Source: Ferrimicrobium sp.
GTDB taxonomy: Bacteria; Actinomycetota; Acidimicrobiia; Acidimicrobiales; Acidimicrobiaceae
NCBI RefSeq assembly: GCF_027319265.1
Contig: NZ_DAHVNP010000049.1
Span: forward strand, 75,558-110,188
Length of the DNA stretch: 34,631 nt
Direction: 5' to 3'
A model generated the notes under the pieces. It was not told the origin of the DNA, did no database searches, and was given only the letters and a program-made list of their open reading frames with translations. A program made the position numbers and the translations under genes. Below are positions 22,744 to 27,720 of this stretch, in pieces (position 1 is the first letter of the stretch; each line of letters starts with the position of its first letter).

Positions 22744-24387
22744 CTACGAGATCGCCACCCCATCTTCATCGGTGCAACGCTCATCACCAAAGGCGGGCAT
22801 CCGACTCACCTTCACGCCTCTCGCCGACGAGAAGGAGAGAAAAGCGCCCACGGGCTGATGCTCGAGTTCGTAGACATGGACCTGCGGGCTGCGGAGCCGG
22901 ACAATAGCGTCATGATCGTTATCGAGGTCACGCACGATACTGGCACTCCGTATCGGTGGGTCAATCTCGAATCCGTTGCGCGCCGCTACCACCACAAAGA
23001 TCGTGGAACTGCAGGCCTGAAAATGTTGATCGGGGGCAAAGATCGCAAAGACAGCGGCCCGATCGGCGAATCTACCGACAATACCCTCCGATACGACCAC
23101 CTCATCATCGGCTGGGATCGCGACCGTCTGTAGCTGCGCCGCAACTCGTGGAGGAACGGTCAACCATTGTGGAGGAATTCCGCGATCGACGTCGATACCG
23201 AGAGCTGCACTCATCACGGCCACAACCCCCATCGCCCCGCCAAGGGGCCATCGAGCCCATCGCGGTGACAACCGTAAGCGGGCCAATAACCACGTACCCA
23301 TCAGCACCGTACCCATCTCGAGCAGCACGACCTCTGGGAAGTTCTGAAAACCTCCGGATTGCAAGGAGAGAAAGGCAGCCGAATGTTGCAGGCCGTTAGC
23401 CCCAATCGCCAACAGAGTGACCATAGCGGCCGGTACAAAGAGCACACCGAGCACCCCTGAATACCCGAGCATCTCACCTATGGCACTGTGTCGCGAAGCC
23501 AGAACATGAAGCGGGAGACCAGGATGCGCCAGCACCCCTCCGATAATTGCCATCAACGAAGGGTTCTGGCGGTGGACCTGACTGAGATAGCCATAACTGA
23601 GCGCAAAGGTCGTCGATTGATGCGCTCCGAGGATGAGATCGACGGCGAGCCACCCCAACCCCACCGCAACGACCAGAAGGCCCTGGGCGCGCCGTTGTGC
23701 AAGGAGCAGAAGGCCTAGCCCCAATCCAATGACCAGCAATATCTCACTCGTACCCGCCAACAACGTCAGCCCGATCATGATCCACGCCAACAATGGCCGT
23801 TGTCTGAGAAAGCCAATCAATGCGAGAAGGAGGGTGAGGGCGGCGATCGACTGGAAGTGAAAATCAAAGGACGCTGTCTCATAGAGCCAAGGGTCAGTGA
23901 GGGTCATCAACCCAAATCCTGCCAGCATGACCAGCCGCCATGCAAGGGGGAAGTGCTGCTGGAGTATCACTCGAATAGCGACGAGGAGTAGTACCAGCGT
24001 GGTTGCCGCCAACGACAGCGATTGGATGACCAACAGCGTGATGCCAGAACGAGCCACGAGTCGTAGCGCTCCAAGCGGCCAAGCCAACAAGGAGAACTGA
24101 TCACGCCAGAACTGATCCTGGTAGATAGTGTCGAAGGGGTTGAGGTGGCCGTGAGCGATTAGGTACGTTGCCTGATTGACGATCCCATAGTCCTCTGACA
24201 GGTCAAAGTGATGAAACTTGTTGAGCGAATAGATCAGCAGTACCGCGAACTGGACAAGGGCACCGAGCCCAGCCAAGGCCCAAAGCACCCGAGTAGTGGT
24301 CGTGACCGAACCCTTGCGCAGGGGGCGCATCAAGTCGATCAGTCGTGGCTGATCGGAGTCTGTAGACTCCTCTGTTTCTGAAGACAT
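22744..24387 (-). CDS. DUF2079 family multi-pass membrane protein
   Basis: 547 residues. About 10-11 hydrophobic segments follow a charged 30-residue start. The family hallmark is in the first loop: FDLSEDYGIVNQATYLIAHG, then a DQFWRDQFS run, matching the DUF2079 pattern of acidic residue plus Gln around a periplasmic loop that recalls GT-C glycosyltransferases. The C-terminal 130 residues are soluble. The function is not established; a role in envelope glycan transfer is a reasonable guess only. It lies six bases after the Nudix stop and so is coupled to it. Confidence 0.8.
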   Translation of the reverse strand: MSSETEESTDSDQPRLIDLMRPLRKGSVTTTTRVLWALAGLGALVQFAVLLIYSLNKFHHFDLSEDYGIVNQATYLIAHGHLNPFDTIYQDQFWRDQFSLLAWPLGALRLVARSGITLLVIQSLSLAATTLVLLLVAIRVILQQHFPLAWRLVMLAGFGLMTLTDPWLYETASFDFHFQSIAALTLLLALIGFLRQRPLLAWIMIGLTLLAGTSEILLVIGLGLGLLLLAQRRAQGLLVVAVGLGWLAVDLILGAHQSTTFALSYGYLSQVHRQNPSLMAIIGGVLAHPGLPLHVLASRHSAIGEMLGYSGVLGVLFVPAAMVTLLAIGANGLQHSAAFLSLQSGGFQNFPEVVLLEMGTVLMGTWLLARLRLSPRWARWPLGGAMGVVAVMSAALGIDVDRGIPPQWLTVPPRVAAQLQTVAIPADDEVVVSEGIVGRFADRAAVFAIFAPDQHFQACSSTIFVVVAARNGFEIDPPIRSASIVRDLDNDHDAIVRLRSPQVHVYELEHQPVGAFLSFSSARGVKVSRMPAFGDERCTDEDGVAIS

Positions 24388-24393
24388 CGTCGC

Positions 24394-25233
24394 CTACGGG
24401 CCAGTGGCTGGGCGCGTGGGCAGTGCCTCTCCTGAGGCGAGAACGGTCGCAGAGGCCTGACGATACTCTGGGGCATCGGGAAGCGCGACCGCGACAGAGC
24501 CATCAGGTCGCCGGTAAAACCGTGGCTGAATTGGTGGGACACTCGTCAGTGCACGCGCGGCGTCGAGCAACGTCTCGACATCACCAAATGACGCAAGAAA
24601 CTCAAGGTTCTTGACCGTTGGCAGCACCAGCTCAAACTGACCTTGATAGTAGGCATCAAGGGCGCGCTCTGGGGTGATCCACACCTCGCCCACGATCTCG
24701 GAGCGGTCCGGCGTCGCCAGCTGTTGGGGTGGAACGCGCGCGAGGAAGAAGCGGGTATCAAAACGCCTTGGCGCGCCTTCTGGGGTGATCCAATGAGCGA
24801 CATAGATGAGCGCTCCGACATCAAGCACAAGATCGAGGTGCTGAACGATCTGGGCGAAGGAGCGTTCTCCCTCCACGAGTGCACGTCGTGCAACCCGCAA
24901 CTGGAGCTCAAGGTCGCTGGCAGGGCGACGGAGATCATCCACCACGAGGAGAATGCCCGCCTCCTCATAGGCTTCTCGCAGGGCGGCCACATAGAAACGA
25001 AGGGCATCCGTGACACCAAGACGTGCATCTGCCTCGCTGGGGTCTAACCCGGAGCATCGAGCAGTAAGCGTCGGATCACCATCATTCACATCCACCGATC
25101 CGCCCGGGAAGACATGAGCACCTCCGGCGAACGCGAGATCTTTGTTCCTCCGCAGGAGAAGGACCTCAAAACCTGCGGGAGCATCGCGCACCAACATCAC
25201 CGTGGAGGCCAAGCGCAACTGAGCAGTACTCAT
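24394..25233 (-). CDS. Nudix hydrolase with large insertion (NUDT19-like)
   Basis: 279 residues. The N-terminal strand [10 protein letters not shown], the [10 protein letters not shown] segment and REAYEEAGI (residues about 86-94) make up a Nudix box interrupted by about 40 residues, the arrangement of NUDT7/NUDT19-like coenzyme A or acyl-CoA diphosphatases. [10 protein letters not shown] and [19 protein letters not shown] are typical downstream elements. The ATG at 25233 is one base after the tRNA-Pro CCA, with no room for an RBS. Translation is therefore probably leaderless, from an mRNA freed by tRNA 3' processing. DUF2079 follows directly. Confidence 0.85.
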
Positions 25234-25234
25234 A

Positions 25235-25311
25235 TGGTCGGGAAGGCGGGATTTGAACCCGCGACCTCAGCGTCCCGAACGCTGCGCGCTGCCAAGCTGC
25301 GCTACTTCCCG
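25235..25311 (-). tRNA. tRNA-Pro (anticodon CGG)
   Basis: On the minus strand the cloverleaf closes fully. The acceptor CGGGAAG (25305-25311) pairs with CTTCCCG (25239-25245), followed by discriminator A and encoded CCA (25235-25237). The D-arm is AGCGCAGCTTGGCAGCGC, and the anticodon stem CAGCG/CGCTG surrounds TTCGGGA with anticodon CGG. The T-arm is CGCGGGTTCAAATCCCGC. The 5' end overlaps the receiver gene's last ten bases, and the 3' CCA is one base from the Nudix start codon. TACACT at 25321-25326 (minus), nine bases upstream, could be its -10. Confidence 0.95.
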
Positions 25312-25754
25312 TCAGCTACCAGTGTAGAGGCTTCTTCCACCTCGCGACTACTGTCGAGTGGTTGATATGAGTTGTCGAGGAAAAGGTTCCCATCGAGGAC
25401 CGCCTCCACGGCGTCAACCACCATCAGCGGATTCAAGGGCTTCACCAGATAACCATCCGCTCCGGAACGCTTAGCGGTAAAAACATCAGCTCGTCGATCG
25501 AGGAGCAAGATGATTCGCGTCGGCTCCAAACGGCCCGCATCTGCCTCTAGACGCAGATCAATGCAGACCGCGATGCCACCCATCGAACCGATCTGTGAAT
25601 CCAGGACCACGACATCGGGTTGGATCTCCGCGGCGGCGTCTCGGACTGCTCTGCCCGCTGACACAGCGTAGAGCGTGTGTTCATCGGCATCAAGGGTGGA
25701 GGCGAGCTCCTCTTCGAGCTCGGGTGAATCAGTGACAAGAAGGATGGTTGCCAT
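25302..25754 (-). CDS. Stand-alone response regulator receiver domain protein
   Basis: 150 residues, essentially one CheY-like receiver. The N-terminal strand [16 protein letters not shown] carries an acidic residue (D9), and the phosphorylatable Asp is in [13 protein letters not shown]. The conserved Thr/Ser and Lys come later ([12 protein letters not shown]). No output domain follows; the last 25 residues are an acidic, Ser-rich tail. The TAG stop (25302-25304) coincides with bases 8-10 of the tRNA. It starts 11 bases after the second ArsA-like gene, so it is in that operon. No histidine kinase is adjacent. Confidence 0.85.
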
Positions 25755-25765
25755 AGTTCACCAGC

Positions 25766-26851
25766 CTACTCGGGGACCGCGAAGGGTACCAAAGCACACC
25801 GTTGCATTGCATCGGCCACCTCTTCTAGCGCCGTGAGGTTCGAGACATCACTCGCGAGATCCTCAAGGAAATAAAATCCACCGAGCGCGAGATCAAGCCC
25901 CCATGACTCGATCGCCAAGACTTCATGTGCACGCATACGCGCCAGCCGTTCTAGGTCAGCACGGGCTTGTGCCGGTGCATGCGGATCGGACGGATCCGAC
26001 GCATAGGTTGGCGTCATGCGGTTGATCAGTACGCTGTTGACCTCGTGTCCTATCCCCTGTAAAAGCTCCACCATTCGACTCCCCGCCGCCAAGGAGTCAG
26101 GCGCCGGTGAGGAGACCAACAGATAACTCGTCGCCTCCGATGCGAGCAGCTCACTCGTCCTCAGTGCTCGTTCACGGAATCCCTCTTCGATCCCGGAAAA
26201 GGCCTGGAAGAAGCTCATGGTATCGTTGACGACATCGGCACCTACCACGCTTGCGATCTGTTTGACGAGGCCGCGAGTCGCCATCGCAATCGGTCGCAAG
26301 TAAAGAGGCGGAGGCTTGAGCATGAATTTGAAGACACGGTTGTCCAAAAACCCCGCGAGTCGACTCGGGGCGTGCAGGAAATCGATCGCCGCTTGGGCGG
26401 GTGGCGTATCGACAATGATCGTGTCGAAACGCTGACTCTCCCTGAGTTCCCAAAGCCGCTCAAAGGCCATGTACTCCTGCGTGCCCGACAACCGCGTTAC
26501 AAGATTACGGTAGACAGGATTCTCGACAATCTCCTTCTCCTGAGCCTCCGAAGAGGAGTAACGAGCGATCATCGCGTCAAAGGTCTGCTTTGGGTCGAGC
26601 ATCGCCACCCAGTAGTTGGGGATATCCTCGCTGGCAAGCACCGGCTCATTGCCAACCCGGTCAAGGCCAAGCGCAGAGGCGAGGCGCCGTGCCGGGTCGA
26701 TCGTTAACACACAGACGTTGCGACCCGTCCTTGCCAGCAAAAGCCCAACCGCCGCCGCACTGGTGGTCTTGCCGACTCCACCTGGACCAATACAGACCAG
26801 CGTCTCTTTGGAGCCGATGGCATCGAGAAGATCCGTCACTGCATCTCCCAT
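25766..26851 (-). CDS. ArsA/GET3-like ATPase, subunit with degenerate signature lysine
   Basis: 361 residues. Walker A reads GPGGVGKTT (22-30): Pro stands where the signature Lys of the deviant P-loop (KGGxGKT) should be. TIDPARRL, the A-loop with the FDTIIVDTPPAQAAIDFL switch, and GTQEYMAFERL match the actinobacterial ArsA-like partner that I recall as Rv3680 of M. tuberculosis. Its start overlaps the end of the first ArsA gene by 16 bases. The two probably form a heterodimer with one full site. No arsenic operon genes are nearby, so metal export is unlikely; protection against metabolic stress has been reported for the mycobacterial pair, as I remember it. Confidence 0.87.
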   Translation of the reverse strand: MGDAVTDLLDAIGSKETLVCIGPGGVGKTTSAAAVGLLLARTGRNVCVLTIDPARRLASALGLDRVGNEPVLASEDIPNYWVAMLDPKQTFDAMIARYSSSEAQEKEIVENPVYRNLVTRLSGTQEYMAFERLWELRESQRFDTIIVDTPPAQAAIDFLHAPSRLAGFLDNRVFKFMLKPPPLYLRPIAMATRGLVKQIASVVGADVVNDTMSFFQAFSGIEEGFRERALRTSELLASEATSYLLVSSPAPDSLAAGSRMVELLQGIGHEVNSVLINRMTPTYASDPSDPHAPAQARADLERLARMRAHEVLAIESWGLDLALGGFYFLEDLASDVSNLTALEEVADAMQRCALVPFAVPE

Positions 26852-27720
26852 CGATCCGCCTGATCAAAAAGATACTTAGCTGCTTTCGTTGGTTGCGTGG
26901 CGTTCTCCACGAAAGGAAACTCAAAAACAGGGACGGGAAGCAGGCCACGAACCACTTGGACCTGTGCCTGCGCAAAGTCCGAACGTGAGGTCAAATACTG
27001 ATTCGCGCGGTCTTCGGCCGAACCTGGCATCAGATCATCGAGTCGATGCACCATCGCGGGCATCCTGTTGACGACACAAGAGAGTACGTGGGTAGCTAGC
27101 AACGTTGTCAAGTTGGTGTAGACCTCGCTCGTCTCCTGCACTGGGGTCTCCTCCGGCAACGTCACCAGCACAACCCCGGTCAACTCCTGATCCCGCAACA
27201 GAGCGATGACGTCGGCACTCTGCGAAGCGATCGGCCCATCGGTCGCTATCGCACCGAGTCCATCAGGCGATGATAACAATGAAAGCAGATGACCAGACGC
27301 GGGCGCGTCCACGAGAACAAGATCATAGATGCCAGAGTTCACCAACTGCTTGATCTTCGCCAACACCAACAAGTCCCGGATGCCGGGGATCGCCGTCGAA
27401 ACGGCATCGATGACACCGGACTTCAACAGACGCTGGGCCAATGGACCAAAGCCATGGGTCTCAAGGTACTCCAACATGACGGCATCCGGCAGGAGAATGA
27501 CCTGTTCAATGCCGTCTGATTCACCACCAAATTCGTCAAAGAGCACCAGCAAGGGTTTCAGCCCCGCCGTCTGGGCGATACGAGCGATGAGACGAGCCAC
27601 ACTTGACTTACCCACCCCACCCTTGCCCGTCACGAGTACCAGCCGGGGATCGCCAATGAGCTCCGAGAGTATGATGCGCGCCTTCGCTGTCTGCACCCCT
27701 CTCACCTTAGGCGCGATCAC
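26836..27720 (-). CDS. ArsA/GET3-like ATPase, subunit with intact signature lysine
   Basis: 294 residues from the GTG at 27720; a later GTG (27705 or 27696) is possible. The Walker A with signature Lys, TGKGGVGKSS, is at residues 31-40; the start region carries a SELIGDPRLVLV strand. DLVLVDAPASGHLLSLL is the switch, and IPGIRDLLVLAKIKQLV matches the mycobacterial Rv3679 family from memory. Its end overlaps the second ATPase gene by 16 bases, so expression is coupled. The promoter is shared with divergent whiB: 90-odd bases separate the two genes. Confidence 0.87.
   Translation of the reverse strand: MIAPKVRGVQTAKARIILSELIGDPRLVLVTGKGGVGKSSVARLIARIAQTAGLKPLLVLFDEFGGESDGIEQVILLPDAVMLEYLETHGFGPLAQRLLKSGVIDAVSTAIPGIRDLLVLAKIKQLVNSGIYDLVLVDAPASGHLLSLLSSPDGLGAIATDGPIASQSADVIALLRDQELTGVVLVTLPEETPVQETSEVYTNLTTLLATHVLSCVVNRMPAMVHRLDDLMPGSAEDRANQYLTSRSDFAQAQVQVVRGLLPVPVFEFPFVENATQPTKAAKYLFDQADRWEMQ

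Follow-up and report, generated by a model that had tools for sequence, protein, structure and literature searches.

The minus strand of the analyzed window, a stretch of 34,631 nucleotides from a Ferrimicrobium genome (G000), carries a receiver-domain gene, a gene for tRNA-Pro(CGG) and a Nudix hydrolase gene in direct succession (Table 1). The receiver frame runs 10 nt into the tRNA gene and is terminated there by a TAG (25304-25302). On the other side, the encoded CCA ends at position 25235 and is followed by a single base, 25234, and by the ATG of the Nudix gene (25233-25231). The overlap and the one-base gap, both described in an earlier note on this DNA, were confirmed by ORF and ARAGORN coordinates and are kept in all seven Ferrimicrobium genomes examined, with T as the gap base in five of them, A in one and G in one.

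Table 1. Features of the tRNA-Pro(CGG) locus and its surroundings (window coordinates).
Feature	Position	Strand	Remarks
Receiver-domain protein gene	25302..25754	-	150 aa; stop codon TAG within the tRNA; ORF, Pfam, relatives, synonymous diversity
TACACT, a hexamer of the TAnnnT type and probably the -10 element of the tRNA promoter	25321..25326	-	9 nt upstream of the tRNA
TAG stop codon of the receiver gene = tRNA positions 8-10	25302..25304	-	
tRNA-Pro(CGG), CCA encoded	25235..25311	-	ARAGORN
One-base gap between CCA and ATG	25234..25234	-	T in the window; T, A or G across the genus
Nudix hydrolase gene	24394..25233	-	279 aa; starts with ATG; neither SD nor TAnnnT hexamer of its own
DUF2079 membrane protein gene	22744..24387	-	6 nt past the Nudix stop codon
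Two overlapping ArsA/GET3-type ATPase genes	25766-26851 and 26836-27720	-	upstream of the receiver gene

The receiver protein was assigned by Pfam Response_reg (44.3 bits, cut-off 30.2) and the Nudix protein by Pfam NUDIX (27.2 bits, cut-off 21.1). With regard to a pathway shared with the tRNA, these two were the only protein domains found with Pfam at the locus, and we know of no tie between tRNA-Pro and its neighbour genes. The DUF2079 gene probably shares a transcript with the Nudix gene, and the ATPase genes probably form an operon with the receiver gene. The tandem ATPases (25766-27720, minus strand) resemble mycobacterial BagA and BagB, with scores below the NCBIfam cut-offs. Receiver domains usually have Ser or Thr in the fourth strand; by eye, the receiver encoded at 25302-25754 seems to carry an aspartate instead, and the usual switching may therefore not apply.

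A whole-genome tRNA screen was carried out for G000 only, the assembly of which is 95.9% complete. It covered 47 tRNA genes, a few of which lie at contig ends and are visible from one side only. tRNA-Pro(CGG) is the only one of the 47 into which an upstream ORF of at least 80 aa runs, and also the only one with a downstream ORF of at least 60 aa starting within 10 nt; the next-closest case is a GTG at +12 after tRNA-Tyr. By our own count, positions 8-10 read TAG in 26 of the 47 tRNAs, so that a frame entering a tRNA gene in the right phase often stops there.

Two sequence elements were observed near tRNA ends. A motif near CAGTTCAGAG is common to the downstream regions of several unrelated G000 tRNAs (L070, L075, L077, L078, L079, L081), and ten exact copies of CAGTTCAGAG were counted in G000 compared with two for the control; it is perhaps a trailer or terminator. 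Among the matches listed, AAGTATCCGTATG follows tRNA-like 3′ ends in G002, G009, G015, G025, G030 and G034, as would be the case for a single recurring element of the mobile or trailer type.

A strict two-box sigma-70 scan of positions 24300-25900 revealed no site, missing the TACACT box as well, and was replaced by a count of TAnnnT hexamers with control windows. In G000, 44 tRNAs have 100 nt of upstream sequence; 36 of them show such a hexamer at a distance of 4-24 nt, compared with 6, 9 and 4 in windows of equal width further upstream. For tRNA-Pro(CGG), all seven genus loci have TACACT with a spacer of 9 nt, and of 23 further loci in the order, 18 carry a TAnnnT at a distance of 7-17 nt before the tRNA (0-4 in six control windows). 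In the genus, the box forms codons 143-145 of the receiver gene; in G016, a genome outside the genus, the same box lies 8 nt upstream of the tRNA and outside the receiver CDS. The pairwise synonymous difference amounts to 0.07 in receiver codons 143-151 and 0.10 in codons 141-149, compared with a mean of 0.49 for nine-codon windows in codons 1-138, where the lowest value, 0.18, is found at the gene start. From this low difference and from the position of the box in G016 it follows that this DNA is held by the promoter and the tRNA. The comparison thus indicates that tRNA-Pro(CGG) has its own conserved promoter within the 3′ end of the receiver gene, and the receiver tail STLVADGK is the translation of promoter and tRNA sequence. 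With a promoter of its own, most transcripts of the tRNA should not contain the receiver.

The wider context was compared in 23 receiver loci outside the genus, which are the best-scoring ones and come from several families of the order, loci of 30 other genomes being left out. In all 23, tRNA-Pro(CGG) lies on the strand of the receiver gene and the receiver frame ends 12 to 826 nt before the tRNA (within 125 nt in 21); for this reason, the overlap is regarded as derived and not needed. In three of the loci (L048, L049, L056), a frame ending at tRNA positions 8-10 turned out not to be the receiver, which ends 826, 43 and 799 nt before the tRNA, respectively. Most likely, the overlap goes back to a lost receiver stop codon: the frame would now read through the tRNA promoter until it is caught by the TAG that is common in tRNAs at positions 8-10. 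The link between receiver and tRNA appears weak on these grounds.

Two genomes outside the genus are informative for the other junction. In Acidimicrobium ferrooxidans (G012), the GTG of the Nudix gene follows the CCA directly (gap 0) and the receiver stop codon lies 12 nt before the tRNA. In G016, where the tRNA gene does not encode the CCA, 19 nt separate the receiver stop codon from the tRNA and 54 nt the tRNA from the Nudix GTG; the abutment of tRNA and Nudix gene is therefore not obligatory. The receivers of the seven genus genomes, G012 and G016 form one branch with a support of 100/99 in a tree of 30 rows, for which the program gave a warning on the long row of G012. A class-wide pattern search in 395 evenly drawn genomes, with only three of the seven genus genomes included, gave matches in six (G000, G002, G004, G012, G066, G388). 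The last two were rejected: by eye, the match in G066 is a different tRNA-Pro with a GTG opening a short frame, and the one in G388 is a frame of 233 codons without Pfam match. Furthermore, 15 near-zero gaps in relatives were hand-picked among the matches listed. ARAGORN found a tRNA at 13 of these places, the exceptions being L140 and L145, and none of the 13 opens an ORF of at least 90 aa at the abutting ATG, the longest frames being 64 aa at +1 and 75 aa at +3. Taken together, the pair of receiver and tRNA-Pro(CGG) appears to be old in the order and the pair of tRNA and Nudix gene to be confined to a small clade of acidophilic iron oxidisers; for this reason, the three genes are not one conserved unit.

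These observations bear on the model of the earlier note, in which one transcript runs through all three genes, a cut at the 5′ end of the tRNA, which would be that of RNase P, removes the stop codon of the receiver, the Nudix mRNA is made leaderless, and tRNA processing and the expression of both genes are thereby linked. The geometry permits this, and the same model has been published for selB-selC (PMC8124441). It is nevertheless considered very improbable here, given the tRNA promoter and the receiver frames that end before the tRNA in all 23 loci outside the genus. Moreover, no tmRNA was found over the Rfam cut-off in the incomplete assembly of G000, a cut-off that only 9 of 14 control genomes pass, and two weak stretches were negative with ARAGORN. 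The earlier reading is thus partly supported: its Nudix half, a leaderless mRNA, agrees with the comparison of homologues described below, while the loss of the receiver stop codon found no support and cannot serve as the proposed link. The order receiver-tRNA-Pro-Nudix, for which recurrence in related genomes had been proposed as a check, recurs in all seven genus genomes examined, but its second pair was seen only in the small clade.

The absence of a ribosome binding site at the Nudix start, also claimed before, was confirmed by the calculated anti-SD pairing, which is about +0.1 kcal/mol in all seven genus loci, including that of the window, and +0.6 kcal/mol in G012; three relatives of one other genus have an AGGAGG SD with -11 to -12 kcal/mol. 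No TAnnnT hexamer occurs within 30 nt of the Nudix start in the seven genus loci or inside tRNA-Pro(CGG) in 30 of 30 loci, in scans that did not extend to other promoter types. Lacking hexamer and SD in and just after the tRNA, the Nudix gene should be transcribed from upstream.

Stand-alone homologues of the Nudix gene were found in 38 genomes of the order, of which 36 were counted; G054 (weak partial match) and L179 of G046 (anchor motif not found) were left out, and paralogues in the genomes are not part of the count. In 20 of the 36, a TAnnnT is located 6-8 nt before an in-frame start codon, with 0-6 in sixteen control windows of the same width; if only the nearest start is considered, it is 16 of 36 versus 0-5. 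By our own count, the 20 belong to 11 of 22 genera and include related genomes. The remaining 16 lack the hexamer at this distance, and three of these have a strong SD. A spacing of 6-8 nt corresponds to a transcript starting at the start codon and is the mark of a promoter-made leaderless mRNA. The Nudix gene thus seems to be often leaderless by promoter in the order and to lie at a tRNA end without such a promoter in Ferrimicrobium and Acidimicrobium. As judged from these comparisons, the Nudix message at the locus is very likely leaderless.

The homologues also bear on the position of the start codon. In most genus genomes, further in-frame candidates exist downstream, namely a TTG or GTG at codon 6 or the ATG at 25197 that the earlier note had considered. 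The residues before 25197 (R-x-A-[AS]-T) align with homologues whose start codons and hexamers lie upstream of them, a later start would probably remove part of the first strand in the Nudix fold, and a good SD is likewise missing at the 25197 ATG. It is therefore extremely improbable that translation begins later, and the ATG at 25233 fits the homologues.

The Nudix gene could also have a separate leaderless or short-leader transcript from a different kind of promoter, located in the tRNA or at the end of the receiver gene, as the hexamers beside the starts of over half of the homologues might suggest and as scans for sigma-70 and TAnnnT types would not reveal. We consider this improbable, since the 77 bases preceding the gap are fixed by the tRNA and neither the TAnnnT count inside the tRNA nor the two-box scan gave any indication of it.

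On the basis of sequence comparison, it appears fairly probable that the tRNA promoter and the 3′ cut of the tRNA replace the leaderless promoter that the Nudix gene has elsewhere, and that the receiver overlap is a by-product. RNA polymerase starting at the tRNA promoter would read on into the Nudix gene, and into the DUF2079 gene. Release of the tRNA by a cut in the CCA or directly behind it would leave a Nudix mRNA with a leader of 0-3 nt, which would be translated as a leaderless mRNA in this phylum.

Cuts of this kind are known from other actinobacteria. In Streptomyces coelicolor, most of the 12 tRNAs with encoded CCA are reported to be cut between the two Cs, as are some such tRNAs of Propionibacterium acnes, and both species have many leaderless mRNAs (PMC4681348, PMC3848588). 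At the locus described here, a cut between the Cs would leave CAUAUG in Ferrimicrobium and CAGUG in G012. This cut would be carried over by analogy from other actinobacteria, from which it is known, to an order from which it is not. For P. acnes, an obvious tRNase Z homologue is reported to be missing (PMC4681348, PMC3848588); in G000, no match over the model cut-off for tRNase Z was obtained, with only 9 of 14 control genomes reaching this cut-off. RNA folding of the tRNA-Nudix junction gave no signal: the minimum free energy fold of the tRNA with the first Nudix codons is not the cloverleaf and is no better than that of shuffled sequences (z 0.42).

Alternatively, the genes may be packed closely without function. 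Transcripts reaching the Nudix gene by readthrough, either from the promoter of the tRNA or from the operon of the receiver, would then be translated at a low level as uncut tRNA-mRNA, and trimming of the tRNA would destroy the message or have no bearing on it. In P. acnes, cuts lying a few nucleotides past the CCA are reported as well (PMC4681348, PMC3848588), and such a cut would destroy the Nudix start codon; the 54-nt gap in G016 and the small number of tRNAs abutting real genes, for which an excess over chance was not demonstrated (see below), likewise agree with mere packing. Nevertheless, the gap remains one base in all seven genomes while the base itself varies, it is zero in G012, over half of the Nudix relatives look built for leaderless expression, and initiation should be poor at an ATG that has no SD and is preceded by a folded tRNA. 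Close packing alone is therefore rated as unlikely, and the replacement of the Nudix promoter by the tRNA is preferred.

The phylum was searched for further start codons at tRNA ends. For gaps of 0 or 1, a strict tRNA-end pattern followed by RTG was applied to 149 genomes and gave 90 matches, 80 of them true tRNA ends. The frames of more than 250 aa comprise two Nudix genes, glmU after tRNA-Gln in G066, three ArgS frames and three rejected others. The ArgS frames, which follow tRNA-Thr (L250, L251, L253), were not counted, as the family match of L250 begins at residue 8, where an in-frame valine codon is located. L188 and L266 have no Pfam match; the cellulase match of L228 is weak and does not begin before residue 86, and its frame contains a later Met.

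The search for a gap of -1, in which the ATG and the CCA have the A in common, covered 119 genomes and yielded 58 matches. With the exception of one place of G512, these were analyzed, and 51 of the 57 proved to be true tRNA ends. In G076 (L302), the final A of tRNA-Ser(GGA) with its encoded CCA, around position 1525, is also the first base of a deaminase gene. Its product matches the Pfam families MafB19-deam and dCMP_cyt_deam_1 and looks TadA-like by eye. In G453 (L347), which represents a second family of the phylum, a gene for a GlmU-like nucleotidyltransferase (Pfam NTP_transf_3) follows tRNA-Gln. Rejected were L331, L332, L338 and L353 (no Pfam match), L350, an oxidoreductase that probably starts later as its match begins at residue 20, and L342, which reads into an EF-Tu with a later start by eye.

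Further glmU loci belong to genus g33 of the same order. In 7 of its 14 loci (L285, L289, L290, L291, L293, L294, L296), the ATG lies on the A of the CCA of tRNA-Gln(UUG), with a second ATG as next codon in L285. L292 has the same sequence at a contig edge, two loci have a one-base gap, three a longer one, and one could not be resolved; the glmU motif was not found in L286, L287 and L288. In L269 and L270, glmU starts one base past the CCA of tRNA-Gln(UUG).

In most cases, no gene begins at the start-like triplet behind a tRNA end and the real genes amount to a handful, so that an excess of gaps of -1 to +1 over chance was not demonstrated in the surveys of 149 and 119 genomes. Only tentatively do we suggest that in Actinomycetota leaderless mRNAs may repeatedly arise from the trimming of tRNA 3′ ends, with starts at -1 to +1 in unrelated genes (Nudix after tRNA-Pro, glmU after tRNA-Gln, TadA-like deaminase after tRNA-Ser). 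Where the A of the CCA is shared, only a cut between the Cs or further upstream, together with CCA repair, would yield a tRNA as well as a translatable message, and trimming would gate expression.

In mitochondria, tRNA punctuation operates genome-wide: the excision of tRNAs sets the ends of the mRNAs and yields leaderless mRNAs. The locus described here is similar in that tRNA excision would make a leaderless mRNA, but it is a single bacterial chromosomal locus with its own tRNA promoter, where the cleavage is deduced. The tRNA-mRNA operons of E. coli (tufB, secG) also have a tRNA and a protein gene on a shared transcript; in these, a leader is located between the tRNA and the start codon.

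In actinobacterial leaderless mRNAs, the start codon is reported to lie at or within a few nucleotides of the 5′ end, without SD (PMC4681348, PMC3848588, PMC4633059). Their 5′ ends are described as arising from transcription starting at the codon, whereas that of the Nudix mRNA would be produced by trimming of the tRNA. In a search of the literature, only one paper came close, a study of the selB-selC overlap in Alphaproteobacteria and others, which models a nonstop upstream and a leaderless downstream mRNA and also notes a tRNA-Sec that ends at position -2 relative to the start of selA (Mukai 2021, PMC8124441). According to this source, a bacterial ORF runs into a tRNA gene there as well and the downstream ORF begins at the tRNA end, so that nonstop and leaderless products from an overlapping tRNA are already published. 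As described in that study, the ORF takes in the entire tRNA or roughly its first half, as opposed to 10 nt at tRNA-Pro, and tRNA and protein cooperate, whereas the tRNA-Pro locus has its own tRNA promoter within the upstream CDS.

No published match was found for this promoter inside the upstream CDS, for the replacement of a promoter-made leaderless 5′ end by one that is probably made by a tRNA, or for the parallel in glmU. If confirmed, the locus would provide a natural system for leaderless translation with a monophosphate 5′ end, the gapless form being present in a cultured type strain, Acidimicrobium ferrooxidans, and the odd cut between the Cs of the encoded CCA in Streptomyces and Propionibacterium would have a use. 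The maturation of a tRNA would then define where a bacterial mRNA begins and render this mRNA translatable, as a counterpart of the tRNA punctuation of mitochondria.
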